DNA from: a virus | Reading direction: 5' to 3' (one strand) | DNA length: 64,000 bases | IMG/VR virus record: IMGVR_UViG_3300044641_006011 | Span: 1 to 64,000 of that record | Shown here: positions 568 through 57,633 of the stretch, in pieces | Position numbering within the stretch: the stretch's first letter is position 1 | Layout: each line of letters opens with the position of its first letter | Notes under the pieces: model-generated | What the model was told of the DNA's origin: nothing | Seen by the model: only the letters and a program-made list of their open reading frames with translations | The model's database searches: none | Position numbers and translations under genes: made by a program

Positions 568-593
568 AAAAAAAGAGACCCGTGAGGGTCTCT
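568..593 (-). terminator. Rho-independent terminator of psbA
   Basis: An 8-bp perfect stem (AGAGACCC with GGGTCTCT) and a 4-nt loop is followed on the minus strand by six or more T. It starts just after the psbA stop codon at 601. Confidence 0.88.
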
Positions 594-600
594 AATTTTA

Positions 601-1892
601 TTAACCGATTGCGGGAGCAGTAAGAGCAACTGGGGTTGCTTCTGCTGCTGCAAGGTCAAGTGGGAAGTTGTGCTTCCAGTTTGGACTATATCTTCACCAT
701 ACTCTTTATGAGGTTAGGTGTCGGACGCTATTGGTGTATTACATCCCACGCTTGGGAAACCACCTAGTCTCTGAACCTTCCCTAGAAGCGTCTAGGGCTT
801 GGCTGCTGATTGCCCGTTAGGGTTTCCAGCAATTCATCCGAAGTTTACCTTGTCTTTTCAGGCAAGGGCGCCCACAAATCGAGCGTTGCGTTCGTGCATC
901 ACCTCTAATCCGAGTCCAGCACGGTTCAGAACATCAGCCCAAGTGTTGAGCACACGACCTTGTGAGTCGATAATGGACTGGTTGAAGTTGAAACCGTTGA
1001 GGTTGAATGCCATGGTGCTAACACCAAGAGCAGTGAACCAGATACCAACTACAGGCCAAGCAGCAAGGAAGAAGTGAAGTGAACGAGAGTTGTTGAACGA
1101 GGCATATTGGAAAATAAGGCGTCCGAAATAACCATGAGCAGCAACGATGTTATAAGTCTCTTCTTCTTGACCGAACTTGTAGCCGTAGTTCTGGGACTCG
1201 CTCTCGGTGGTTTCACGCACCAGGGAGGAGGTCACTAGCGAGCCGTGCATGGCGGAGAACAGGCTGCCGCCGAACACACCAGCCACACCAAGCATGTGGA
1301 AGGGGTGCATCAGGATGTTGTGCTCTGCCTGGAACACAAGCATGTAGTTGAAAGTACCAGAGATGCCAAGAGGCATAGCGTCAGAGAAAGAACCTTGACC
1401 GAAAGGATAGACCAGGAATACGGCAGAAGCAGCAGCAACAGGTGCAGAATATGCAACGCAGATCCAAGGACGCATACCTAGACGGTAAGAAAGTTCCCAC
1501 TCACGACCCATATAAGCGTAGATACCAATCAGGAAGTGGAAGACAACCAGTTGGAAAGGACCACCGTTGTACAGCCACTCATCTAGGGAAGCAGCTTCCC
1601 AGATTGGATAAAAGTGCAGTCCAATTGCGTTGGACGAAGGAATCACAGCACCAGAGATGATGTTGTTTCCGTACATGAGTGAACCAGCAACGGGTTCACG
1701 GATACCATCAATGTCCACAGGGGGAGCACCGATGAATGCGATGATGAAACAAGTCGTAGCAGCAAGAAGGCAAGGAATCATGAGGACTCCGAACCAGCCG
1801 ACATAAAGACGATTATCAGTTGAAGTTACCCACTGGCAAAATTGTTCCCAGAGGTTTTCGCCAGAACGGCGTGAAGCGATTGAAGCAGTCAT
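601..1892 (-). CDS. psbA: photosystem II D1 protein, gene split by a group I intron
   Basis: The coding sequence is complement(join(601..672,882..1892)): exon 1 of 337 codons, exon 2 of 23 codons plus stop, 360 residues in all, the normal D1 length. Reading through without splicing stops at 858 with a false tail (RFVGALA). The splice joins ...MHERNA to HNFPLDLA..., restoring the conserved lumenal tail. The Mn-cluster ligands equivalent to H332 and E333 are in exon 1; those equivalent to H337, D342 and A344 are in exon 2, so an unspliced product could not be functional. GREWEL carries Glu at the residue-130 equivalent, as in high-light D1 forms. D1 is the fast-turnover photosystem II core subunit, and the phage copy probably replaces it during infection. 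A sigma70-like promoter lies at 2062-2090. Confidence 0.97.
673..881 (-). ncRNA. group I self-splicing intron in psbA
   Basis: This 209-nt insertion interrupts psbA between codons for Ala and His near the 3' end. Exon 1 ends in T and the intron ends in G, as expected for group I. Core elements are visible: a P7 5' strand with GACTA (complement of 764-776), its partner TAGTC within AAGATATAGTCC (complement of 683-694), a Q-like AATCAGCAGCC (complement of about 802-812), and a hairpin CCTAGA/TCTAGG at 781-796. No ORF lies inside; the presumed homing nuclease is free-standing downstream. The exact boundaries are my reading from exon restoration and could shift by a base or two. A similar short psbA intron is known in cyanophage S-PM2. 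Confidence 0.92.
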
Positions 1893-2019
1893 TTGTTTTA
1901 AAAGAGTAGTAAGACCATCAGGGAAATGGTGGAGTTACTATTCCCCAGTCACCCTCAGACTGGGTATGAGAGACGTAATTTATACACCCATAGGTCTCGG
2001 TTAACGGGTGCTTAACATT

Positions 2020-2045
2020 GTTACGAATTGTTAGAGATTCGTAAC
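2020..2045. repeat. perfect 9-bp inverted repeat in the psbA leader
   Basis: GTTACGAAT (2020-2028) and ATTCGTAAC (2037-2045) form a perfect inverted repeat with an 8-nt spacer, between the psbA promoter and start codon. It could be an RNA hairpin stabilising the leader or a protein site; there is no T-run, so it is not a normal terminator. Confidence 0.6.
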
Positions 2046-3635: not shown

Positions 3636-3845
3636 TCAGAAGATGCCGAAGAAGAGTTTGCCAGTGCTAAGATAAGAAATGAGCCCAGCAACAATACCGA
3701 CCATAGCCCAGCGTCCATTTGCTTTCTCCGCTTTCTCAGCATAGGGTTCGAATCCATAACGCTCAATATCTTCCTCAGACATCCACATTGTAGGTTCTTT
3801 GGCAAACATATTCATTTGCCCAAATTCATTTTTAGTTACAGTCAT
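3636..3845 (-). CDS. hli: high-light-inducible protein
   Basis: A 69-residue Hli protein using the ATG at 3845 (MTVTKNEFGQ); an upstream in-frame ATG at 3884 would lie in the promoter -10 region and is rejected. EKANGRWAMVG is the chlorophyll-binding motif, followed by a membrane helix (IVAGLISYLSTGKLFFGIF). It is the first gene of the cassette and is preceded by a TTGACC-17-TATAAT promoter at 3873-3901. Confidence 0.92.
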   Translation of the reverse strand: MTVTKNEFGQMNMFAKEPTMWMSEEDIERYGFEPYAEKAEKANGRWAMVGIVAGLISYLSTGKLFFGIF

Positions 3846-3872
3846 TGTAGTTTTGTAAAGAACTGTTACAGA

Positions 3873-3901
3873 ATTATATAGCAAAAATAAAGAGGGGTCA
3901 A
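3873..3901 (-). promoter_or_regulatory. sigma70-like promoter of the photosynthesis cassette
   Basis: TTGACC (3896-3901), 17-nt spacer, TATAAT (3873-3878) on the minus strand, 28 nt before the hli start. The -35 lies in the hairpin of the terminator at 3889-3911. Confidence 0.78.
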
Positions 3902-3911
3902 GCCCCTCTTT
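3889..3911 (-). terminator. terminator of the glycan polycistron
   Basis: A perfect 9-bp stem (AAAGAGGGG with CCCCTCTTT) and a 5-nt loop, with T-rich sequence after it on the minus strand. It separates the glycan cluster from the photosynthesis cassette. The loop and 3' stem also carry the -35 of the next promoter. Confidence 0.85.
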
Positions 3912-3944: not shown

Positions 3945-4736
3945 TTATTTTCCTTCCCATCCAGGCGGAAGTCTTCCAAAGTATGGATCATACTCAAATA
4001 AAGAATTCCAATTTTCAATGTCTGCAGATTGATTTCTCCAAAATTGCCACAATCCCTCATAACTGCTGCGATGAAACACATCAATATGAATATCGTGAAT
4101 TGAAGATCCCAATTCGATTTTATACAAAAATAAAGGAATAGAAAAAGTATTACCAGAGTTATAAATTAAATCGTCAGCAACAGCTCTTGGTTTAACACCA
4201 TTATCCAATTTATACTTATCATCACGACAGTGAAGATTGACAAGTTTTTGTGCATGGTGCCTAGTGATCATATAACATGCAGTTGAAAAATCATTTACAA
4301 AACGACGATGAATCTGTAAATGAACCTGTGCAGGGTTAATAATAGCAAGTTGAACTACATCATAGTCATATGGAACTTTTGAATAAAAGTCTTTCCAAGT
4401 AAATCCCCAATGAGACACAGTAGATAAATCACAATCATCTTCCATTACTATAATGTAAGGATAATCAGTTTCTTCAACAAAATGTTTGAGAGTTTTTAAA
4501 TGAGTCGTTACACAACCAACTTCACCAGAATTCATCATATCTGGATATTTTCCTTTAATAATATCACTCAAATCGTCTGAACGACCGTCATATGCAGAAA
4601 TGCGAGTATAGTTTTCAATCCCCCAGTATTTAAACTGGTCTTCCATATATTGTGCTCTTTCTGGTTGACCATCTAAATTCAAATAATAAATTGGTGGTAT
4701 ATTCTTAAGTTTGTATAATGATTTGTTTTTGTCCAT
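3945..4736 (-). CDS. glycosyltransferase family 25 (LPS type)
   Basis: A 263-residue GT25-type enzyme. PIYYLNLD (residues 15-22), VGCVTTHLK (about 73-81) and IVMEDDCD (about 96-103) are family blocks; the acidic MEDDCD would bind metal and nucleotide sugar. These enzymes add galactose or glucose to LPS-type glycans at the inner membrane face. It is the last gene of the glycan run, 1 nt after the GT11 gene. Confidence 0.85.
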   Translation of the reverse strand: MDKNKSLYKLKNIPPIYYLNLDGQPERAQYMEDQFKYWGIENYTRISAYDGRSDDLSDIIKGKYPDMMNSGEVGCVTTHLKTLKHFVEETDYPYIIVMEDDCDLSTVSHWGFTWKDFYSKVPYDYDVVQLAIINPAQVHLQIHRRFVNDFSTACYMITRHHAQKLVNLHCRDDKYKLDNGVKPRAVADDLIYNSGNTFSIPLFLYKIELGSSIHDIHIDVFHRSSYEGLWQFWRNQSADIENWNSLFEYDPYFGRLPPGWEGK

Positions 4737-20247: not shown

Positions 20248-21244
20248 CTAATTGTTCAAATGAAATTTTAGGTTCCCAACCTAATTTTTCTTTTGCCTTT
20301 GTGGCATCACCTAATAAGGTTTCTACTTCAGCAGGTCTAAAATATTTAGGACTTACTTTAATAACAGTTCTTTTGGTAAGTCTATCAATACCAACCTCAT
20401 CAAGACCTTCACCTTCCCAAGCAATCTTCATTCCAAAATAAGGTGCTGCCTCCTCAACAAACTCACGCACCGAGTATTGCTCCCCTGTGGCGATTACATA
20501 GTCATCTGCTTCATCTTGCTGCAGCATTAACCACATCGCCTCCACAAAGTCCTTAGCGTGTCCCCAATCGCGCTTTGCATTCAGATTCCCGAGATATAAT
20601 ACATCTTGTTGCCCAGTTGAAATAGATGATAATCCGCGAGTGATTTTTCTTGTGACAAAAGTTTCTCCTCTTCTAGGGGATTCGTGATTGAAAAGAATTC
20701 CAGAACTTGCATGTAATCCGTAAGACTCTCTGTAATTTTTGACGATCCAGTATCCATAAACTTTTGCAACTCCATAAGGTGAACGTGGGTAAAATGGTGT
20801 TGTTTCTTTCTGTGGAATTTCTTGAACCTTACCAAACATCTCTGAAGTAGATGCCTGATAGATTCTAGTTTTATTCTCCATACCCAGAAGACGAACTGCC
20901 TCAAGAATACGAAGAGTTCCCAATCCATCAGTTTGACCAGTATACTCTGGTACTTCAAAAGACACTTTTACATGACTTTGAGCACCAAGATTGTAAATCT
21001 CATCAGGTTGAACTTGCTGAATCACTCTTACAAGATTAGTAGAGTCTGTAAGATCTCCATAGTGAAGTTTAATCTGATCGTAAATATGATCAATTCTATG
21101 AGTATTGATTAATGAAGCACGACGAATTATGCCGTGAACTTCATATCCTTTCTCTAATAGGAGTTCAGCAAGATACGATCCATCTTGTCCTGTTATTCCA
21201 GTTATCAATGCAGTTTTCATATTTTTTACATTAAAGTATTTCAA
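20219..21244 (-). CDS. gmd: GDP-mannose 4,6-dehydratase
   Basis: 341 residues. [18 protein letters not shown] (12-29), [17 protein letters not shown] with the catalytic Thr/Glu, and [10 protein letters not shown] with YxxxK are all intact. It makes GDP-4-keto-6-deoxymannose, the entry point to fucose, rhamnose or perosamine. Start ATG at 21244 gives 8 extra residues before the usual MKTALITG; the inner ATG is also possible. Confidence 0.96.
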
Positions 21245-21909
21245 TCACTATAATTTGATCTAGTCATTAATATTATTTTATCATTATCATAATCAATTAA
21301 ATTTCTATTATTATGATTAAATTCAATAAAAGAAATTTCGTCATAATATTTGTCATACCCATAATTTTTTATTTCATTAATATACGATTCTTCCAAATTG
21401 CCTTTATCAATATCTTCAATTATTAAAATTGAAGAAGGCAATAAGTATTTTACACATCCACGAATCAACCTAATTTGATCCCAAAATAAATGACTAGCAT
21501 CATCAATTAAAATATCAAACTTTACTTTACACTTTGAAAGCGATTGTTCTATGGATTCTTCAAAAGAAGTATGCATATAATCATAAACTACATTTTGCAA
21601 TTTACACTTCTTAGCATTTTCTATGTGTTCATGATGTCCGTCCCAGGCATATATATTTGCATTTAGAAAATATTCTCTCCACATTTTAATTGAAGAGTTG
21701 TGCAATATTCCAATTTCGCCAAAATTTATTTTTTGATGTCTATATCTAGACAATAAAATGGAATAAAAAGGTGTATACGAATGTCTATAATAATCTTCAT
21801 TTACATAACTATATGGAGATTTGTCAGTACCATATTTTGCTCCTATTTCACAAAGATCTGTTTTATTGTCAAAGCAGTTTATATAAAATCTATTAATATT
21901 CATATCCAA
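21241..21909 (-). CDS. SAM methyltransferase-like, first gene of the glycan run
   Basis: 222 residues. [28 protein letters not shown] is followed by [17 protein letters not shown] (motif I), IYAWDGH and [16 protein letters not shown] with IIEDID, as in sugar methyltransferases of the rhamnan or CmcI-like group. An ATG at 21903 is an alternative start. A sigma70-like promoter at 21925-21953 lies just ahead, so this is where the 18-kb run probably begins. Confidence 0.72.
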
Positions 21910-21924
21910 AGAATACCTAGTAAT

Positions 21925-21953
21925 ATTATACTAAAAAAGGTGAGTTTATGCAA
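21925..21953 (-). promoter_or_regulatory. sigma70-like promoter of the glycan run
   Basis: TTGCAT (21948-21953), 17-nt spacer and TATAAT (21925-21930) on the minus strand, 16 nt before the first glycan gene. The -35 is inside the loop of the terminator at 21933-21962. Confidence 0.6.
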
Positions 21954-21962
21954 CCCACCTTT
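21933..21962 (-). terminator. terminator upstream of the glycan run
   Basis: A 7-bp stem (AAAGGTG with CACCTTT) and a 13-nt loop are followed on the minus strand by a T-run. It would stop transcripts coming from the HNH gene and beyond. Confidence 0.75.
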
Positions 21963-21998
21963 ATAACTCAGGCTCGCCACCAATTCTTTGACTGGAAA

Positions 21999-22112
21999 TT
22001 AGAAACCAGGCGGAGAAAGAATTCCCCATCCGCACCAGCAAGAATTTTTATTGTGCCTTATCTTGCGGGCACCAAGAAGGTAAAGTAGAACCTTCTCTTT
22101 TAAATTTCTCCA
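21999..22112 (-). other. open frame with Cys/Trp-rich end, no start codon (possible gene remnant)
   Basis: Behind the HNH gene one frame is open for 37 codons and ends NSCWCGWGILSPPGF then stop, with no ATG, GTG or TTG. The tail looks protein-like. It may be the 3' end of a gene cut by insertion of the HNH gene, or chance. The stretch 21963-22047 holds nothing else I can name. Confidence 0.3.
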
Positions 22113-26272: not shown

Positions 26273-26346
26273 TCGGAATGACAGGATTCGAACCTGCGAC
26301 ATCTCGCTCCCAAAGCGAGTGCTCTACCAAACTGAGCTACATTCCG
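26273..26346 (-). tRNA. tRNA-Pro(TGG)
   Basis: A full cloverleaf: CGGAATG pairs with CATTCCG, discriminator A; anticodon loop TTTGGGA between CTCGC and GCGAG gives TGG. CCA is not encoded. It reads CCA (and by wobble CCG). Confidence 0.96.
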
Positions 26347-26357
26347 TAATTTATAAT

Positions 26358-26386
26358 ATAGTAACATAAGTAATAAATTTTGTCAA
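26358..26386 (-). promoter_or_regulatory. sigma70-like promoter of tRNA-Pro
   Basis: TTGACA (26381-26386), 17 nt, TACTAT (26358-26363) on the minus strand. The -35 overlaps the stop of the 144-residue gene. Confidence 0.7.
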
Positions 26387-26817
26387 GTAACTGTTACTGT
26401 CAATGTGCCACCTTTCGTAAATACTGGAGCATATAAACTACCATAATTATAAATTAAACTCCACTTATTAGGATTTAAACTATAAGTTACTCCATTCACA
26501 TCAGACCATACTTTACCAACATTACCATTATAAGTAATAATGTCTTCATAAAAAGCTTGATTCCAAATGTCCATACTCCATCCAGAAGTTGGATGCTGAC
26601 CAGCTGGACTTGTAGATCTCCAAGTTACATACTGAACTCCACTTCCGTCATATCCATTTACAGAAGACACTGAAAATAAACTTGGTAAACTAGGAGTTGT
26701 GGCACTAATTGAAAACCCAGTTATAGTTTTAATTGTTGTTGAAGAGTCCGCAGTAAATTGAACAGTCCATTCACTACCAATAGAAGGTGCTGTAACTGCT
26801 AACGTAATTGTCGCCAT
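26383..26817 (-). CDS. beta-rich protein, possibly virion-associated
   Basis: 144 residues, Ser/Thr/Gly/Tyr-rich and beta-strand-like throughout (MATITLAVTAPSIGSEWTVQ, KWSLIYNYGSLY, GGTLTVTVT), starting and ending in strands as an Ig-like or jelly-roll domain would. No signal peptide. It could decorate the virion surface; no family recognised. Confidence 0.65.
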   Translation of the reverse strand: MATITLAVTAPSIGSEWTVQFTADSSTTIKTITGFSISATTPSLPSLFSVSSVNGYDGSGVQYVTWRSTSPAGQHPTSGWSMDIWNQAFYEDIITYNGNVGKVWSDVNGVTYSLNPNKWSLIYNYGSLYAPVFTKGGTLTVTVT

Positions 26818-26826
26818 ATCTTTACT

Positions 26827-26946
26827 TTACTTTATGTTATTATGTATAAAAGCAATTCCCATAATAGGAACCACAACTATTCCAAATCCACAAAGTCCTA
26901 ACCAAATTGGACTATTTGCAAGTGTTTCTACTACGTGAAAAATCAT
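26827..26946 (-). CDS. single-helix membrane peptide
   Basis: 39 residues (MIFHVVETLANSPIWLG...), one hydrophobic helix (LGLCGFGIVVVPIMGIAFI) and a short basic end. ATG overlaps the stop of the upstream 75-residue gene. Function unknown. Confidence 0.62.
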   Translation of the reverse strand: MIFHVVETLANSPIWLGLCGFGIVVVPIMGIAFIHNNIK

Positions 26947-27170
26947 CTTCCTCTCCAATTCTTATATTCATAATAAAAATACTGATCAACCTCATTAAGA
27001 CCTGACAAAGGAGCACTCACATCCCAGTATGACCATTCAATACAGAACTGCTTAATATGCATGTCATTAGAAGCGGATCTTATCCCAAGCATTCTTGAAA
27101 ATGCAGACATTGCAAAATTATATCTTTGCTTAATGTGCGGTTCCATTTCCCTTATAGTCTTTGGAGTCAT
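26943..27170 (-). CDS. conserved small protein, unknown
   Basis: 75 residues from the ATG at 27170 (MTPKTIREME), chosen because GAGGAGG lies 6-9 nt upstream; an ATG at 27191 lacks such a site. Aromatic-rich C-terminal half (FCIEWSYWD, YFYYEYKNWRGR). Overlaps both small membrane genes around it. Confidence 0.7.
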   Translation of the reverse strand: MTPKTIREMEPHIKQRYNFAMSAFSRMLGIRSASNDMHIKQFCIEWSYWDVSAPLSGLNEVDQYFYYEYKNWRGR

Positions 27171-27249
27171 AGTATCCTCCTCGTGTTCCAAAATACAGTG
27201 TAGTCAGTACAAAAGGAATAGAAATAAAAATAAGTGCTTTACCTAACAT
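27130..27249 (-). CDS. single-helix membrane peptide with Gly/Tyr tail
   Basis: 39 residues: a helix (LIFISIPFVLTTLYFG) followed by TRGGYYDSKDYKGNG. Its ATG overlaps the stop of gnd, and its 3' end overlaps the next gene by 41 nt. It resembles the tiny photosystem-type subunits in build, but I cannot name it. Confidence 0.62.
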   Translation of the reverse strand: MLGKALIFISIPFVLTTLYFGTRGGYYDSKDYKGNGTAH

Positions 27250-28273
27250 GATGTCCCCCAAACATATAACGCATACCATTTAAGATCTTTGCTCCAAATG
27301 ATCCGAGATTGCGTGAGTTAAATCTTTCAAATAAGGCAGTAGTAATAACAGGAGCGGGAACCCCCAGATCCACAGCGGCAGAAACAGTCCAACGACCCTC
27401 ACCACTGTCGGATACGCCTCCAGAGAACTGTTTAAGGCTACCATCCCTGCGTAGCACATCAGCAGTAAGATCGAGTAACCAAGACCCAACCACACTACCA
27501 CGACGCCATAACTCAGCAACCTCAGCAACGTCAATATCATAACAATAACTTTCTGGGTCTGCCATTGGAGCAACCTCAGCATCTCCTTCTTTAACATACT
27601 GAGAACCTGCGTTAGCGTTCTTTAAAATATCGAAACCTTCAGCATATGCTTGCATTATACCGTATTCAATACCATTATGAACCATTTTTACAAAGTGTCC
27701 GGCACCAGGTCCACCACAATGTAACCAACCAAACTCTGCAGAAGTTACGTCCGAGTTAAATTGAGTCCTGGGGGCAGCGTTGATTCCTGGAGCGAGGGCA
27801 TCAAAAATGCGCGAACAAGTGGCGACTGCAGTATTTCCACCACCAACCATAAGACAGTATCCACGATCCAAACCATAAACACCACCGCTAGTGCCACAAT
27901 CAATATATTGGATACCCAACTTTGCCAGGCGTTCTGCTCTCTTCCGACTGTCTTTAAAATTGCTATTGCCATGATCAATAATAATATCTCCTTCACCACA
28001 ATATCGTAGTAACTCATTGATCGTCTCCTCTACGGTTTCGGCAGGTACAACCATCTGAAAGATTCCTGGTTGTGTTCCTCCATTTTTATTTTGCTTAACT
28101 ACTTTAACAAGATTTTCAATAGTAGTTGTAACGCCGTTAACATACCCACTTTCGTATGCTTCGTTTGCTTTTTCATAATTCCTCCGATAACCCCAGACTT
28201 CTATTCCTGCCTTCATCATGCGGCGAGACATACCTTCGCCCATTCTACCTAATCCAATCAATCCTACTTTCAT
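27239..28273 (-). CDS. gnd: 6-phosphogluconate dehydrogenase, short decarboxylating type
   Basis: 344 residues from the ATG at 28273 (MKVGLIGLGRMGEGM), preceded by AGAGG; the longer in-frame form to 28306 would run through the upstream gene. GLGRMG binds NADP, DHGNSNFKDS and GTSGGVYG are family blocks, HCGGPGAGHFVKMVHNGIEYG holds the catalytic Lys and substrate site. It turns 6-phosphogluconate into ribulose-5-phosphate, CO2 and NADPH. In cyanophages this supports the pentose phosphate route to nucleotides alongside RNR. It overlaps a small membrane gene upstream (ATGA). Confidence 0.95.
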   Translation of the reverse strand: MKVGLIGLGRMGEGMSRRMMKAGIEVWGYRRNYEKANEAYESGYVNGVTTTIENLVKVVKQNKNGGTQPGIFQMVVPAETVEETINELLRYCGEGDIIIDHGNSNFKDSRKRAERLAKLGIQYIDCGTSGGVYGLDRGYCLMVGGGNTAVATCSRIFDALAPGINAAPRTQFNSDVTSAEFGWLHCGGPGAGHFVKMVHNGIEYGIMQAYAEGFDILKNANAGSQYVKEGDAEVAPMADPESYCYDIDVAEVAELWRRGSVVGSWLLDLTADVLRRDGSLKQFSGGVSDSGEGRWTVSAAVDLGVPAPVITTALFERFNSRNLGSFGAKILNGMRYMFGGHHVR

Positions 28274-28365
28274 AAAACCTCTGGATATGCGTGTGTAAGT
28301 CCCCAATGTATAAAAAGTCCAATAGAAGAAAAAAGAATAATTGTTGATATTATTGCTTTAATCAT
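28270..28365 (-). CDS. single-helix membrane peptide upstream of gnd
   Basis: 31 residues (MIKAIISTIILFSSIGLFIH...), a helix and a short tail ending AYPEVL. Its stop overlaps the gnd ATG and its start overlaps the stop of the 96-residue gene, so it is translationally coupled to both. Confidence 0.6.
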   Translation of the reverse strand: MIKAIISTIILFSSIGLFIHWGLTHAYPEVL

Positions 28366-28648
28366 CTTCCTCGTCCTCGTAAGTTGATGGTTCTTCAAAT
28401 AGTTCTTCTATTTTTTGTTGTAAAACTCTTCTTTGAAGTTGTTCAATATCTTCGTCTGTAAATCTCACCACTAGTAACGGATCTCCTACCTTAACATCGT
28501 TCATTTCTGGGTGCTTCACTTTTGGACTTTTTGAGTATCCATGGTGAGCGTTCATAATCATCCAACCTTGTGCAATCATAGAAATTGCAATACCCATAAG
28601 CACAAACCAAGGAACTAAAAATATTATTGGAGAGTAATTTTGAGCCAT
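28358..28648 (-). CDS. membrane-anchored acidic protein, unknown
   Basis: 96 residues. A helix (IIFLVPWFVLMGIAISMIAQGW) near the N-terminus, then a soluble part with DPLLVVRFTDEDIEQLQRRV and an acidic tail (YEDEEDD). Overlaps the 67-residue gene by 25 nt. Conserved build, function unknown. Confidence 0.7.
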   Translation of the reverse strand: MAQNYSPIIFLVPWFVLMGIAISMIAQGWMIMNAHHGYSKSPKVKHPEMNDVKVGDPLLVVRFTDEDIEQLQRRVLQQKIEELFEEPSTYEDEEDD

Positions 28649-28827
28649 GGAAGTAGTGGAGGAATTACCCCTACAAGTCTTAAAAGTCCCTCAGCAAATA
28701 AAGCAAGAACCACCCAACCAACACACATACTAATAATGGAAGCATTACGATTATGCCTTCGGATAGCGGCATCAATCATCTCCTGTACTTCTGTACGAGT
28801 TACATAATCAACATCAAAAGGTTCCAT
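28624..28827 (-). CDS. small membrane protein, unknown
   Basis: 67 residues from the ATG at 28827 (MEPFDVDYVTRTEVQEMIDAA), then a helix (ASIISMCVGWVVLALFAEGLL). ATG overlaps the upstream stop (ATGA). A GGAG lies 8-9 nt upstream. Function unknown. Confidence 0.7.
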   Translation of the reverse strand: MEPFDVDYVTRTEVQEMIDAAIRRHNRNASIISMCVGWVVLALFAEGLLRLVGVIPPLLPWLKITLQ

Positions 28828-28976
28828 CACTTTTCATCTCCAAGAAACTTTGCAAGAGGGTCTTTTCGTGTTTTTACGATTTCAACTGCTCTCTTATAAA
28901 ACATATTATCTGTATTACCAGACGTTTCAAAAGTTTCTTTGATCTTCACCCAATTAAGATAGGTGTGCTGATCCAT
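28827..28976 (-). CDS. small soluble protein heading the gnd group
   Basis: 49 residues, charged and helical (MDQHTYLNWVKIKETFETSG...). First gene of a six-gene run to gnd and beyond, behind the promoter at 29004-29031. No known domain. Confidence 0.68.
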   Translation of the reverse strand: MDQHTYLNWVKIKETFETSGNTDNMFYKRAVEIVKTRKDPLAKFLGDEK

Positions 28977-29003
28977 AAGGTTTTAGGTTGAATATTACTA
29001 ATT

Positions 29004-29031
29004 ATATTAGTCAGTAATTCTACTTTGTCAA
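29004..29031 (-). promoter_or_regulatory. sigma70-like promoter of the gnd group
   Basis: TTGACA (29026-29031), 16 nt, TAATAT (29004-29009) on the minus strand, 28 nt before the first gene. Confidence 0.65.
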
Positions 29032-29089
29032 GTTTGTGTTGATACAAAAATATAGATTAAAAAAATCTAAAATTTTGTAATATTTGTAA

Positions 29090-29176
29090 CGGAAGCGGTT
29101 AGATTTGAACTAACGGAGGTGTTACCCTCACTTGTTTTCAAGACAAGCGCAATAAACCGGACTCTGCCACGCTTCC
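29090..29176 (-). tRNA. tRNA-Ser(TGA)
   Basis: 87 nt with a long class II variable arm (GTGAGGGTAACACCTC). Acceptor GGAAGCG pairs with CGCTTCC, discriminator G. Anticodon loop CTTGAAA between CTTGT and ACAAG gives TGA. Confidence 0.96.
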
Positions 29177-29187
29177 AAAATAAGTCC

Positions 29188-29445
29188 TCAGCGGACTTCA
29201 AAATCTAAACGTCTTACCTTACGTTGTCTTCTTGCCTCTTGAAAGGCAAGGTCTTCGTTAGTGAGAACACCAGACTTTGATTTATTATTTACAAAGTTTA
29301 GCATAACAACAGAGGATAAGTCAACAGCTGAAATAACTCCTCCACGAATTGTTGCCATATTTGGACAACCACAAGTTATAGTTTTCGTAGAATGTCCCTC
29401 TAACTCCTTACCACAGGATCGACATCTGATTCTTAAATTTTCCAT
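29188..29445 (-). CDS. small zinc-ribbon-like protein
   Basis: 85 residues. CRSCG near residue 8-12 and CGC near 26-28 suggest a small zinc site; the rest (ATIRGGVISAVDLSSVVML) is strand-rich with a basic helix at the end (EARRQRKVRR). Possibly nucleic-acid-binding. A perfect late promoter lies at 29483-29490. Confidence 0.7.
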   Translation of the reverse strand: MENLRIRCRSCGKELEGHSTKTITCGCPNMATIRGGVISAVDLSSVVMLNFVNNKSKSGVLTNEDLAFQEARRQRKVRRLDFEVR

Positions 29446-29482
29446 TGTTATAATCAGTTATACTTCTTCAATCTTTTTTGAA

Positions 29483-29490
29483 TATTTATA
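29483..29490 (-). promoter_or_regulatory. T4-type late promoter
   Basis: A perfect TATAAATA on the minus strand, 37 nt before the zinc-ribbon gene and right after tRNA-Val. Confidence 0.6.
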
Positions 29491-29491
29491 A

Positions 29492-29564
29492 TGGGCAATC
29501 GCAGATTCGAACTGCGGACTTTCTGCGTGTAAAGCAGACACTCTAACCGCTGAGTTAATCGCCC
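29492..29564 (-). tRNA. tRNA-Val(TAC)
   Basis: 73 nt. Acceptor GGGCGAT pairs with ATTGCCC (one G-T), discriminator A. Anticodon loop TTTACAC between TCTGC and GCAGA gives TAC. Confidence 0.95.
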
Positions 29565-29571
29565 AATAAAG

Positions 29572-29736
29572 TCAATATTGACTCATCATATATTCTACAG
29601 TATTTGCTACATCATTCATAGCATCACGTAGATTTTCTCTTTGACCTGATTCTTGTTTAATGATTGGACGGTGATCATCAGTCAAAGTCCAACGCCACTG
29701 ATTCATATCCTTACAAAACCATAGATTAATTTTCAT
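29572..29736 (-). CDS. small conserved protein, unknown
   Basis: 54 residues (MKINLWFCKDMNQWRWTLTD...), two short strands rich in Trp then a helix (ENLRDAMNDVANTVEYMM). Overlaps the upstream 51-residue gene by 11 nt. Unknown. Confidence 0.68.
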   Translation of the reverse strand: MKINLWFCKDMNQWRWTLTDDHRPIIKQESGQRENLRDAMNDVANTVEYMMSQY

Positions 29737-29881
29737 TCTTTGTGTATTCTAGTTTGATCCAATTAATCAAAGCATTTAGTTCCATTCTTTTTTCTTCAGT
29801 AAAATCAAATTTTTTATTGAAGAGATAAAAATCAAGTGCTTCAAGAGCAACTTCTCTATCGCGTTGGGAAATAAGAGACAT
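29726..29881 (-). CDS. small helical protein, unknown
   Basis: 51 residues (MSLISQRDREVALEALDFYL...), helical and charged. First gene after the promoter at 29903-29931. Unknown. Confidence 0.65.
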   Translation of the reverse strand: MSLISQRDREVALEALDFYLFNKKFDFTEEKRMELNALINWIKLEYTKNEN

Positions 29882-29902
29882 AAAACTTTTAACTTGTTAC
29901 TT

Positions 29903-29931
29903 ATAATACACTAAAAAGGGGGTTTTGTCAA
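29903..29931 (-). promoter_or_regulatory. sigma70-like promoter inside the porin terminator
   Basis: TTGACA (29926-29931), 17 nt, TATTAT (29903-29908) on the minus strand. The -35 is the loop and start of the 3' arm of the terminator at 29913-29936. Confidence 0.72.
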
Positions 29932-29936
29932 CCCCC
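29913..29936 (-). terminator. terminator of the porin gene
   Basis: A GGGGGTT / AACCCCC stem with a 5-nt loop, followed by five T on the minus strand, 23 nt after the porin stop. Confidence 0.85.
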
Positions 29937-29959
29937 CAGTTTACACTATGTAGTTATTA

Positions 29960-31453
29960 TCAGAAACGGAAAGTCGTCTGAATTACACCACCATAGTTGG
30001 AAGAAGTATCTGCAAGTGCTTGATTGTTAGACACATAGAACACAGCAGGAGTAACAGTAATATTATCGCTTACACGATACTTATAGAACAGTTCCCACAT
30101 TGTTGCATCCTTTTCAAGACCTTCTGCATTTCCAGGTTGACCGATAGCGAAACCAGCAGAATTACCCTTGGCGAATACATCAGACCACTGAAGACCAGCA
30201 TACCAAGTTTGAGAATCGGTAGCACCAGTAGGAGTTGCTGCACCTTCAGCATTCAAGCTTACGGTGTTCCAACCATATCCACCACTCACAGAAGGAATAA
30301 TACCAGACTTCTTAGGTTGCCAGTAAGCACTCAGAGCATAACCATTAGAGGTTTGTCCAGGAGCAAGAGCACCAGAACTACCCAGAACACCATTAAAGGT
30401 GCGAACACGGGTGCCTTCAGTACCGTAACGATAACCGAAAGCAGCACCCCACTGAGGAGTACGATAACCAATCTGAGCAAGAGTGTTCAGAGCACCCTTT
30501 TCATTAAACTCACCTTTGGTAGAATCAGCACCACTCTGAGCAACATAGTTCAGACCAGCAACGAAACCTTTCTTACCTTGTGACCACTGAGCACCGAAAC
30601 CAGCACCAGTTGCCTTGTTATAGACACCAGGAGCACCAGCAAGTTGGAAGAAGTCCAGAACATCCGACTTATAAGCAGAAGGAATCCAGGTCATCTCAGT
30701 ATTACGAACCAGAGCACCAGCAGTCAGAGTTACACCCTTAGCAAGAGCAGGGAAGCTGTAGTACAGACGGTCAATCTTTACAGAATCAGAAGTGCCTTCT
30801 GCTTTGTCCAGTTTAAAGAGTGAAGAACTGGAACCAAAAGGTTGACTGGAGAAGTTACCAGAACGAAGACGAGTACGAAGAAGATCCTTTCCAGTGAAAG
30901 AAGTATCAAGATTGATACGAAGATCGTAGTTGAAGGCAGTATTGCCTACATTGGTACTGGAATCCTTACCAGGAACCCAAGCATTATCAACACCACCAAG
31001 AACGAAAGATGCTTCACCTTTCAGTTTAGTTGTGGTAGAGAATTGAGTTGCTTCCAGAGCACCAACTTTGGTTTCCAGACTTGCAACTTTACCTTGAATT
31101 ACAGTCAGTTCATCACGGAACTCATTTGCAAGACGACCGAGTTCATCAGTAACTTCGGTTACACGGTCAAGGCAAGCATTCAGAAGTGCTGCTGCTTCAT
31201 AACGGGTCATTGCTTTACCACCACCAAAGGTGCCGTTTGCATAACCAGCAACACAACCATAACGCTCTACAAGATTGCTGAGTGCCTGATATGCCCAGTC
31301 AGTGGGTTGCACATCAGAAAGTTGCGAAACGCTTGTAACCTGCTCAGTGGAGTATTGGTTGACTGCTGCCATGTTAAGGTCTGCGGCATTCGCAGCAACA
31401 GGAGCAACCATTCCCAGAGCAACAGGTGCAAGCATCAGTTGTTTGAGTTTCAT
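29960..31453 (-). CDS. cyanobacterial-type SLH-domain porin
   Basis: 497 residues in the order of cyanobacterial SomA-like porins: signal peptide (MKLKQLMLAPVALGMVAPVAANA), an SLH domain (VQPTDWAYQALSNLVERYGCVAG and GTFGGGKAMTRYEAAALLNAC), a coiled coil (about 95-135, ELGRLANEFRDEL) and a long outer-membrane beta barrel ending in Phe (TTFRF). The SLH part anchors to peptidoglycan. A host-derived origin is likely. It may replace or alter outer-membrane permeability during infection. It is a monocistron with its own promoter and terminator. Confidence 0.9.
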   Translation of the reverse strand: MKLKQLMLAPVALGMVAPVAANAADLNMAAVNQYSTEQVTSVSQLSDVQPTDWAYQALSNLVERYGCVAGYANGTFGGGKAMTRYEAAALLNACLDRVTEVTDELGRLANEFRDELTVIQGKVASLETKVGALEATQFSTTTKLKGEASFVLGGVDNAWVPGKDSSTNVGNTAFNYDLRINLDTSFTGKDLLRTRLRSGNFSSQPFGSSSSLFKLDKAEGTSDSVKIDRLYYSFPALAKGVTLTAGALVRNTEMTWIPSAYKSDVLDFFQLAGAPGVYNKATGAGFGAQWSQGKKGFVAGLNYVAQSGADSTKGEFNEKGALNTLAQIGYRTPQWGAAFGYRYGTEGTRVRTFNGVLGSSGALAPGQTSNGYALSAYWQPKKSGIIPSVSGGYGWNTVSLNAEGAATPTGATDSQTWYAGLQWSDVFAKGNSAGFAIGQPGNAEGLEKDATMWELFYKYRVSDNITVTPAVFYVSNNQALADTSSNYGGVIQTTFRF

Positions 31454-31524
31454 AAAAATTTGTTTTTGTTCTATAGGACATAATGTGTGACTATGCGAGT
31501 AGTTGAGGCACTATCACTTCACGG

Positions 31525-31532
31525 TATTTATC
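31525..31532 (-). promoter_or_regulatory. late-type promoter of porin
   Basis: GATAAATA on the minus strand, 72 nt before the porin start; same form as at psbA and psbD. Confidence 0.5.
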
Positions 31533-31583
31533 TTAACAGTTCCTTTGGGATCAGTCAAGCCTTTTCGGTTTTTACGGTTTATA

Positions 31584-31654
31584 AGCGAATGACGGGGATC
31601 GAACCCGTGACACCAACTTGGAAGGATGGGATGTTACCGCTACACCACATTCGC
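31584..31654 (-). tRNA. tRNA-Gly(TCC)
   Basis: 71 nt. GCGAATG pairs with CATTCGC. Anticodon loop CTTCCAA gives TCC; the anticodon stem has one T-T mismatch (CCATC with GTTGG). Confidence 0.92.
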
Positions 31655-31704
31655 AAAAGTGGGAGATTTCTCTCCCAGCACATTTCCTTCACACGGATAG
31701 GAAA

Positions 31705-31733
31705 AGTATAAGACATAATGAGTATTATGTCAA
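31705..31733 (-). promoter_or_regulatory. sigma70-like promoter of tRNA-Gly
   Basis: TTGACA (31728-31733), 17 nt, TATACT (31705-31710) on the minus strand, touching the 3' end of tRNA-Thr. Confidence 0.75.
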
Positions 31734-31804
31734 GCCCCCGACTGGATTTGAACCAGCGACCAACGGTTTACAAAACCGTTGCTCTACCACTGAGCTACAA
31801 GGGC
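31733..31804 (-). tRNA. tRNA-Thr(TGT)
   Basis: 72 nt. GCCCTTG pairs with CGGGGGC through two G-T pairs. Anticodon loop TTTGTAA between ACGGT and ACCGT gives TGT. Confidence 0.95.
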
Positions 31805-31808
31805 GAAA

Positions 31809-31846
31809 CAGGGGAGGCCATCCCCCTGACCTAGAAATATTCTAGG
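31809..31846. repeat. two hairpins in a tRNA spacer
   Basis: CAGGGG/CCCCTG (31809-31828) and CCTAGAA/TTCTAGG (31830-31846) lie between tRNA-Asn and tRNA-Thr. Neither has a T-run on the minus strand; they may guide tRNA processing. Nothing else is seen in 31805-31894. Confidence 0.5.
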
Positions 31847-31894
31847 TTTTAGTTGGAAGGAGTGCTCTTGAGGTTATCGCAGGATCACTTCCAA

Positions 31895-31967
31895 CTCCCC
31901 CACCTGGACTCGAACCAGGAACCCCAGAGTTAACAGCTCCGTGCTCTGCCAATTGAGCTATAAGGGA
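31895..31967 (-). tRNA. tRNA-Asn(GTT)
   Basis: 73 nt. TCCCTTA pairs with TGGGGGA (two T-G pairs). Anticodon loop CTGTTAA gives GTT. Confidence 0.95.
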
Positions 31968-31986
31968 ATAATGGTAGGAGGGATTT

Positions 31987-32115
31987 CTATGTGCGGACAG
32001 AATCACCTTTCACATCATCCAGTCTAAACCAGCGAGAGGTGTTGCACTTCCTACATTTGATGGAGTAAGTGTGATATACCTCATAAGGATATAACAGTGA
32101 CTTACCCTCTATCAG
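31987..32115 (-). CDS. possible small CxxC protein without a standard start
   Basis: A frame open for 42 codons ahead of tRNA-Asn: LIEGKSLLYPYEVYHTYS, IKCRKCNTSRWFRLDDV, ending SVRT. One CRKC pair and a Trp/Arg-rich stretch look protein-like. No ATG, GTG or TTG is in frame; a CTG at 32115 is the only candidate. It may be a rare CTG start, a remnant, or chance. Confidence 0.3.
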   Translation of the reverse strand: MIEGKSLLYPYEVYHTYSIKCRKCNTSRWFRLDDVKGDSVRT

Positions 32116-32120
32116 TTTAT

Positions 32121-32149
32121 ATATTACACTAGTTCTGAGATTATGTCAA
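32121..32149 (-). promoter_or_regulatory. sigma70-like promoter of tRNA-Asn
   Basis: TTGACA (32144-32149), 17 nt, TAATAT (32121-32126) on the minus strand. Confidence 0.7.
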
Positions 32150-32604
32150 GTCCAAAGGTTATGGTCGTATTCCCAGTGGCAATTTGGGCACAAAGGCATT
32201 ATGTTTTCTTTGGAATTAATAATACTTATCATAACCTCTTCACTAAAAGAAGAAATTGGTTTAATGTGGGCAACTTCTATATGTTTATCATACCCACATT
32301 TGCAACATTTGGTAAATCCAAGTTTTTTTCCTTCTGCTCTTGCTCTTGTCCTAATTAAAGCAAAAGCAGAAGACTTGTGATGTTTTTCATAAATTGCTTC
32401 TTTTAATGTCATATCACCCAAAGAACCACAACATTTTATACATCTTTTACTTCTATAATCAATTTCTACACCACACATTTCGCATTTATTTGGAAAATTA
32501 ATTTTTTTCCTTTTAGGGTGTTGAACATTAGTCCATTTAGCGGCACAACTTCTACTACAAAATTTTGGATTATTATGTTGTTTTCCGCAGGTTACACATT
32601 CCAT
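32146..32604 (-). CDS. HNH endonuclease in the tRNA array
   Basis: 152 residues. Three Cys pairs in the N-terminal half (CVTCGK, CSRSC, CEMCGVEI, CIKCC) look like zinc ribbons, then CCKCGYDKHIEVAHIKPIS and MPLCPNCHWEYDH form the HNH core. Probably a homing nuclease lodged between tRNA genes. A late-type promoter lies at 32628-32635. Confidence 0.87.
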   Translation of the reverse strand: MECVTCGKQHNNPKFCSRSCAAKWTNVQHPKRKKINFPNKCEMCGVEIDYRSKRCIKCCGSLGDMTLKEAIYEKHHKSSAFALIRTRARAEGKKLGFTKCCKCGYDKHIEVAHIKPISSFSEEVMISIINSKENIMPLCPNCHWEYDHNLWT

Positions 32605-32627
32605 ATTATTAATGGATATTACATTAT

Positions 32628-32635
32628 TATTTATG
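32628..32635 (-). promoter_or_regulatory. late-type promoter of HNH gene
   Basis: CATAAATA on the minus strand, 24 nt before the ATG at 32604; one base from TATAAATA. Confidence 0.5.
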
Positions 32636-32658
32636 TTTTTAAGTTGTTTTATTCAAAA

Positions 32659-32733
32659 CAGGCACGGTAGGATTTGAACCTACGGCTAACCGATTAGAAG
32701 TCGGATACTCTGTCCAGGCTGAGTTACGTGCCC
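32659..32733 (-). tRNA. tRNA-Arg(TCT)
   Basis: 75 nt. GGGCACG pairs with CGTGCCT (terminal G-T). Anticodon loop CTTCTAA gives TCT, reading AGA. Confidence 0.94.
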
Positions 32734-32739
32734 ATAAGA

Positions 32740-32765
32740 CCTCCTATAAGTTCTCTTAGAGGAGG
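32740..32765. repeat. hairpin upstream of tRNA-Arg
   Basis: CCTCCTATAAG and CTTAGAGGAGG form an 11-bp stem with one mismatch, just 5' of the tRNA on the minus strand. It lies between the promoter at 32813-32841 and the tRNA, so it is likely a processed leader rather than a terminator. The rest of 32766-32812 shows nothing. Confidence 0.5.
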
Positions 32766-32812
32766 TGTGTGAGGATTACACAAGGTTTAGACCCTCTGTT
32801 ACTCACGAGACA

Positions 32813-32841
32813 ATCATAAAGTATTTAACTTAGATTGTCAA
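32813..32841 (-). promoter_or_regulatory. sigma70-like promoter of tRNA-Arg
   Basis: TTGACA (32836-32841), 17 nt, TATGAT (32813-32818) on the minus strand, touching the end of tRNA-Ile. Confidence 0.75.
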
Positions 32842-32913
32842 TAGGACTGCGGAGAATTGAACTCCGTTCACACCGTTATAAGCAGTGGGCCTTAACCAAT
32901 AGGCGACAGTCCC
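32842..32913 (-). tRNA. tRNA-Ile(TAT)
   Basis: 72 nt. GGGACTG pairs with CAGTCCT (terminal G-T), discriminator A. Anticodon loop CTTATAA between CACTG and CGGTG gives TAT, reading the rare AUA. Confidence 0.95.
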
Positions 32914-46681: not shown

Positions 46682-46689
46682 TATTTATA
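46682..46689 (-). promoter_or_regulatory. T4-type late promoter of the Ala/Lys-rich gene
   Basis: A perfect TATAAATA on the minus strand, 31 nt before the ATG. It touches the T-run of the terminator at 46689-46713. Confidence 0.75.
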
Positions 46690-46713
46690 AAAAAAGAGGG
46701 TCCGAAGACCCTC
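46689..46713 (-). terminator. terminator after the nrd group with TTCG loop
   Basis: GAGGGTC and GACCCTC with a TTCG tetraloop, followed by seven T on the minus strand. The stem takes in the stop codon of the small gene at 46712. Confidence 0.92.
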
Positions 46714-57486: not shown

Positions 57487-57559
57487 TGCCCGTGAGAAGA
57501 TTTGAACTTCCACTGTATGGATTCTAAGTCCACCCTCTCTACCGTTGGAGTACACGGGC
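57487..57559 (-). tRNA. tRNA with Leu anticodon TAG, short variable arm
   Basis: 73 nt. GCCCGTG pairs with CACGGGC, discriminator A. Anticodon loop CTTAGAA between GTGGA and TCCAT gives TAG, reading CUA (Leu). The variable region is only about 5 nt, unlike the long arm of normal tRNA-Leu. Confidence 0.88.
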
Positions 57560-57562
57560 AAA

Positions 57563-57633
57563 TGGAGAATAGGAGAATCGAACTCCTAATAAGTGCTTGC
57601 AAAGCACCCGTTATACCGTTTAACTAATTCCCC
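57563..57633 (-). tRNA. tRNA-Ala(TGC)
   Basis: 71 nt. GGGGAAT pairs with ATTCTCC (one G-T), discriminator A. Anticodon loop TTTGCAA between GGTGC and GCACT gives TGC. Confidence 0.95.

Follow-up and report, generated by a model that had tools for sequence, protein, structure and literature searches.

Putative nested terminator-promoter elements between co-directional transcription units of a T4-like cyanophage

Introduction

Composite elements that join a strong sigma-70-type early promoter to a stem-loop terminator are known from T4-like phages as PeSLs (promoter-early stem-loops) and, in the part of PMC4503421 that relays the work of Arbiol et al. 2010 (10.1093/gbe/evq006) and Comeau et al. 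2014 (10.1093/gbe/evu129), are described as bordering the variable modules of T4-like myoviruses. They were judged to be sparse in the cyanophage S-PM2 (PMC4503421). Two further systems are pertinent, the 'morons' of lambdoid phages, in which a gene is flanked by a promoter and a terminator (PMC1524935), and the finding, made with E. coli in vitro, that a polymerase retained after termination can reinitiate at a promoter close by (Kang et al. 2020, PMC6978380). In addition, the wcaG RNA has been published as a regulator of the glycan or high-light genes that follow it (Weinberg et al. 2010, PMC2864571).

In this study, we analyzed a 64-kb stretch of viral DNA (the window), which is the first part of a 98.6-kb IMG/VR record of a T4-like cyanophage; its nearest relatives with an annotation are also T4-like cyanophages, among them S-SRM01, S-H9-1 and S-RSM4. 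A preliminary description had claimed that a promoter of this marine-cyanobacterial virus is built into a terminator hairpin. We consider it probable (at about 0.86) that each such site is a nested terminator-promoter element punctuating two co-directional transcription units. Nested elements were also found in hundreds of relatives.

Results

The border between the glycan operon and hli

The first element (site 1) lies between the last gene of a glycan operon and hli, with the following features:

3945..4736, minus strand: glycosyltransferase-like gene, last in the glycan operon (from the ORF list), with its stop codon about 34 nt 5' of the site 1 hairpin
3889..3911, minus strand: terminator hairpin AAAGAGGGG-CTTGA-CCCCTCTTT, 9 bp of which 5 are GC, loop CTTGA, stem pairs compensated in relatives
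3896..3901, minus strand: -35 TTGACC in the loop and 3' arm, kept in hli relatives as TTGACA/C/G/T
3883..3888, minus strand: U-tract ATTTTT, within the promoter spacer
3873..3878, minus strand: -10 TATAAT, spacer 17, kept in relatives
3636..3845, minus strand: hli (high-light-inducible protein), predicted to be driven by site 1, with an expected transcript start near 3866 as judged from the -10

The claim that TTGACC occupies the loop and 3' arm, with the -10 following 17 nt later, was borne out exactly. Read on the minus strand from 3911 to 3873, the layout is AAAGAGGGG-CTTGA-CCCCTCTTT-ATTTTTGCTA-TATAAT, in which four bases of TTGACC are in the loop and the last two are the first of the 3' arm. 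The remainder of that arm and the U-tract make up the 17-nt spacer, and the hli start codon (3845) is about 28 nt 3' of the -10. The RNA fold has a predicted energy of -14.1 kcal/mol (z -3.8), which none of 200 shuffles equaled, and the promoter scores 11/12 against TTGACA, a spacer of 17 +/- 1 and TATAAT.

Further elements in the window

Similar units had been proposed at 21962-21925 and 29936-29903, and both proved to have these exact coordinates and the same plan; a fourth follows psbA. All of them are on the minus strand:

21966..22074, minus strand: wcaG RNA (RF01761; cmscan 73.4 bits, E 9e-12), ending 4 nt 5' of site 2
21936..21962, minus strand: site 2 terminator hairpin AAAGGTGGGTT-GCATA-AACTCACCTTT, 11 bp, z -4.2, with covariation in wcaG relatives
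21948..21953, minus strand: site 2 -35-like TTGCAT (TTGCAT, TTGACA or TTTACA in relatives)
21925..21930, minus strand: site 2 -10 TATAAT, spacer 17, 5' of the first glycan-operon gene (21241-21909)
29918..29936, minus strand: site 3 terminator hairpin, 3' of a porin gene (29960-31453, annotation from S-SRM01)
29926..29931, minus strand: site 3 -35 TTGACA, kept in relatives
29903..29908, minus strand: site 3 -10 TATTAT, spacer 17, 5' of a gene for 51 aa that starts at 29881
574..593, minus strand: site 4, the psbA terminator (after exon 2) with its U-tract, in an element spanning 593-558

The four hairpins have the features of intrinsic terminators, namely a GC-rich stem, a short loop, a U-tract and a location right after a co-directional stop codon, and their predicted folds range from -13.6 to -14.7 kcal/mol (z -2.0 to -5.6). 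The accompanying promoters conform to the sigma-70 type (TTGACA-like, 17 +/- 1, TATAAT) to differing degrees. That of site 2 is the weakest, matching 3/6 of the -35 consensus and 9/12 overall, while the promoter of site 3 scores 11/12 beside a modest fold control (z -2.0). Site 4 has TATAAT at 563-558 preceded by TG at 566-565 (a TG-extended -10), and a weak -35 in the loop. Across the sites of the window the -35 starts 12-17 nt before the hairpin end. The hybrid units thus recur and separate co-directional transcription units, as had been suggested.

Several other features of the window were recorded. The psbA gene (596-1892, minus strand) contains a group I intron (661-891, RF00028); exon 2 stops just 5' of the terminator at 593, beyond which there is a gene for an HNH endonuclease (151-522). 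A PhotoRC-II RNA (RF01717, 86 bits) is immediately 5' of psbA at 1930-2023 (minus strand). Ten tRNA genes were detected at the gathering threshold in two clusters, at 26273-32913 and 57487-57633 (minus strand).

Enrichment over chance

Simple consensus scans for hairpins and promoters identified 22 nested composites in nine phage genomes and none in 36 dinucleotide shuffles. A strict pattern, GGGG-TTGAC-CCCCTNTTT-N6-TATAAT with two short gaps permitted, was found in at least 120 IMG/VR stretches, versus five matches for a control with a complemented -10 and one for a control with the loop pentamer reversed; among the matches listed, 109 of 120 were nearest to cyanomyovirus references. Bacterial and archaeal genomes totaling 257 Gb had no match to the strict pattern; the gapped pattern was run there without a positive control, and the result suggests that the strict nested form is a phage feature. 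Genome scans of Syn9, T4 and the Pelagibacter phage HTVC008M did not detect the nested sigma-70 form. S-SKS1 has about eight nested sites, one of which matches site 1 at 96% over 48 nt.

The terminators of cyanophages provided a further view of this enrichment. A -10-like hexamer was present 3-13 nt past 150 of 598 distinct terminators, compared to 41 at 44-54 nt (p 2e-18). When spacers of 10 to 26 were scanned in those 150 for a -35 matching at least 5/6, 27 cases had a spacer of 17, four of 16, two of 18, and every other length none or one. TTGACA-like loops occurred in 32 of the 150 terminators with a downstream -10 versus 19 of the 448 without (p 2e-9). The shuffles, the scrambled IMG/VR patterns and the spike at spacer 17 agree that the frequency exceeds chance, as the preliminary description had anticipated, and together rule out a fortuitous overlap of terminator and promoter.

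Conservation of both signals

Three unrelated loci (5' of hli, after the wcaG RNA and after the porin gene) have compensatory changes in the stem and a constant loop, spacer and -10. Upstream of hli, we compared 78 distinct regions in which a promoter had been scored. Nearly all of them keep TTGACN-17-TATANT and 47 have the hairpin, with stems as different as AAAGAGGGG/CCCCTCTTT, AGGGGTG/CACCCCT, AGGAGGTG/CACCTCCT and GGGTCT/AGACCC. At the porin junction, the element is present in about a dozen relatives, with stem changes such as that from GGGGGTT/AACCCCC to GGGGAGTT/AACTCCC, and the whole element is absent 5' of the same downstream gene in six loci with a tRNA upstream.

The most extensive record comes from wcaG, for which 99 distinct loci were compared. 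In 75 of them (74 found by the detector and one, L558, by eye) the RNA is directly followed by a terminator that holds a nested promoter. The -35 types TTGCAT, TTGACA and TTTACA interchange among these loci, and the spacer is 17 in 68 of 74. An alignment of 28 of the terminators, whose rows were picked for one common register, a choice that favors structure, has nine stem pairs with 99.6% of cells paired and 46 two-sided changes. None of 500 shuffles matched this covariation, every slid control was far lower, and the promoter hexamers were constant. In the full set of 69 promoter-anchored wcaG sequences, the hairpin center is at 4 or 4.5 in 67.

An inverted repeat centered on a -35 is at the usual position of an operator, and the stem might accordingly be a DNA site for a repressor or activator. 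The stem sequences vary freely among relatives while the pairing persists, a U-tract comes next, and stems are generally absent without a co-directional protein gene upstream. An operator is therefore highly improbable, and we discarded it on the basis of the free stem variation with pairing kept.

Stems are mostly found where a co-directional gene is upstream. Among 67 hli loci with such a neighbor, 24 are without a strong hairpin in this register, and in a few the hairpin is shifted upstream. In S-RSM4, whose hli has a divergent neighbor, the corresponding sequence is AGAGGGGCTTGACACATCTTTACAATTGCTATATACT, with the stem broken and the promoter intact. The distribution of stems by neighbor orientation supports a terminator role for the hairpin, but is not conclusive because only five divergent cases were seen, one of which (L109, ambiguous) retains the hairpin. 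Overall, the evolutionary pattern across these genomes indicates that both the terminator and the promoter signals are kept by selection.

The wcaG RNA upstream of site 2

Of 14 T4-like cyanophage records searched for the wcaG RNA, 13 contain exactly one copy (in one of these it scores below the Rfam cut-off). In 85 of 93 loci a co-directional gene ends upstream of the RNA, its stop codon being mostly within about 90 nt, and most loci have a terminator that closes the RNA. This terminator carries a nested promoter if a protein gene is next, and usually none if a tRNA or late box is next.

Site 2 could alternatively be the expression platform of a riboswitch, the role proposed for wcaG (PMC2864571), and govern read-through into the glycan operon, as the frequent position of the RNA immediately 5' of the terminator would allow. 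A search for co-evolved anti-terminator helices, in which wcaG would bind the terminator arms, gave no signal, however, with 7.62 nt for a terminator's own wcaG versus 7.55 nt for swapped ones, so that mutually exclusive aptamer and terminator pairing was rejected for site 2. Moreover, a nested promoter would bypass the switch, and in some loci a tRNA comes after the terminator that closes wcaG. We regard the riboswitch reading as unlikely. In contrast to the published view, at site 2 a terminator and a new promoter separate wcaG from the downstream gene. Together, these observations favor the prediction that wcaG is a 3'-UTR or a separate RNA rather than a riboswitch leader. That wcaG acts in cis on the downstream gene, as annotated, appears doubtful.

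Registers and origins of the nested plan

The distance from the hairpin center to the first base of the -35 is 1-3 nt in the hli family and 4-4.5 nt in the wcaG family, and in KVP40 the -35 is located in the 5' arm. The -35 occupies different places in the hairpin in different families, so the nested plan probably arose more than once instead of descending from a single sequence. When 16 genomes were compared, the offset from the -35 start to the hairpin end was bimodal, with a nested class (about -20 to -11) and a tandem class (+5 to +20), of which RB49 is the clearest case.

KVP40 (AY283928) has three near-identical nested copies at 85853, 100188 and 121371 (plus strand), of the form AAAGGGTTGAC-NNNN-GTCARCCCTTT-CTTG-TATTAT. 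Near-identical nested copies were seen only in this phage.

Such copies would fit a mainly recombinational role, in which the elements are PeSL-like cassettes for module swapping at transcription-unit borders. The neighbors of hli point the same way, with 14 families upstream (20% of pairs alike) and seven downstream (50%). The copies within the window's phage and within S-SKS1 are nevertheless too unlike to recombine readily, and strict promoter spacing demands a transcriptional role regardless; recombination as the main role thus seems a rather poor prospect, somewhat less probable even than the riboswitch.

Discussion

Our comparisons demonstrate, at the level of sequence, the anatomy of the nested elements, their enrichment and the simultaneous selection on their two signals, from which we infer that both signals work in the infected cell. 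The preliminary description had attributed coupling to a polymerase that reads through and may melt the -35 or the hairpin. Our analysis lends no support to that mechanism in this form, as a terminator hairpin forms in RNA and not in promoter DNA. The RNA hairpin and U-tract would end the upstream transcript, and the same DNA would hold a promoter of the host sigma-70 type for the next unit. In this arrangement the -35 lies in the hairpin loop and extends into one arm, the 17-nt spacer consists of the 3' arm and U-tract, and the -10 follows. Nesting works because a terminator is indifferent to its loop sequence and a promoter to its spacer sequence. The dimensions agree, as a 3' arm of 7-9 nt and a U-tract of 7-8 nt come to about 17 nt, the spacer that the promoter requires.

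The predicted termination point would fall some 15 nt short of the new start and within the footprint of the promoter. Terminating and initiating polymerases could therefore not share the element, and neighboring units may be coupled, through either occlusion or hand-off of the terminated polymerase. We place low confidence in this coupling, which follows from the layout.

A related arrangement in the window has a late promoter in place of the sigma-70 type:

46682..46713, minus strand: terminator hairpin with its U-tract merging into a T4-type late box TATAAATA

The same merging of a U-tract into TATAAATA was noted at 66254 and 80773 (minus strand) of the genome G000. In T4-like phages, late boxes (ATAAATA) were found 6-10 nt past 30 terminators, versus one for the reverse complement. 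The presence of late boxes directly 3' of terminators means that border compaction is not limited to the sigma-70 form. Because late promoters need no -35, this is also what would be expected if two independent signals were packed solely to save space, with termination and initiation uncoupled. Packing as such predicts neither coupling nor its absence, however, and a shared footprint makes some interference unavoidable; we give economy alone even odds.

More broadly, the nested elements could be general, repeatedly evolved border marks of cyanomyoviruses that hand polymerase onward, with wcaG forming the tail of the upstream transcript or a small RNA in its own right, and not a riboswitch leader. 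We advance this wider proposal tentatively, holding it a little less probable than its negation. The elements illustrate that two regulatory signals can fit into 40 bp without conflict, both being evolutionarily kept, and they provide a sequence rule for recognizing operon borders in a large ocean-virus family that carries photosynthesis genes, with start and end positions predicted to within a few bases. Polymerase hand-off at terminators thereby becomes testable in a natural system, and the cis-regulatory annotation of the wcaG RNA is called into question.

Comparison with known systems

The window's elements resemble the published polymerase recycling in pairing a terminator with a promoter (PMC6978380), although in that system the two are separate, whereas here they overlap and are known from sequence. 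Like morons, the units they delimit are self-contained, with their own start and stop signals (PMC1524935); morons are single inserted genes, whereas here the borders belong to long units and are common to both neighbors.

The closest likeness is to PeSLs. As in these, a strong sigma-70-like promoter and a stem-loop (a predicted terminator) form one short cassette, and the host genome is that of a T4-like myovirus. In our scan, however, the PeSLs of RB49 are tandem, with the promoter starting 13-18 nt past the hairpin, whereas at the window's sites the -35 is inside the hairpin; and PeSLs occur as near-identical recombining copies, whereas the copies in the window differ in stem and loop. On these two grounds, we do not call the window's elements plain members of the PeSL class. 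The nested form of KVP40 may already appear in Comeau et al. 2014 (cited in PMC4503421). We call the general kind already known and the nested form new here.
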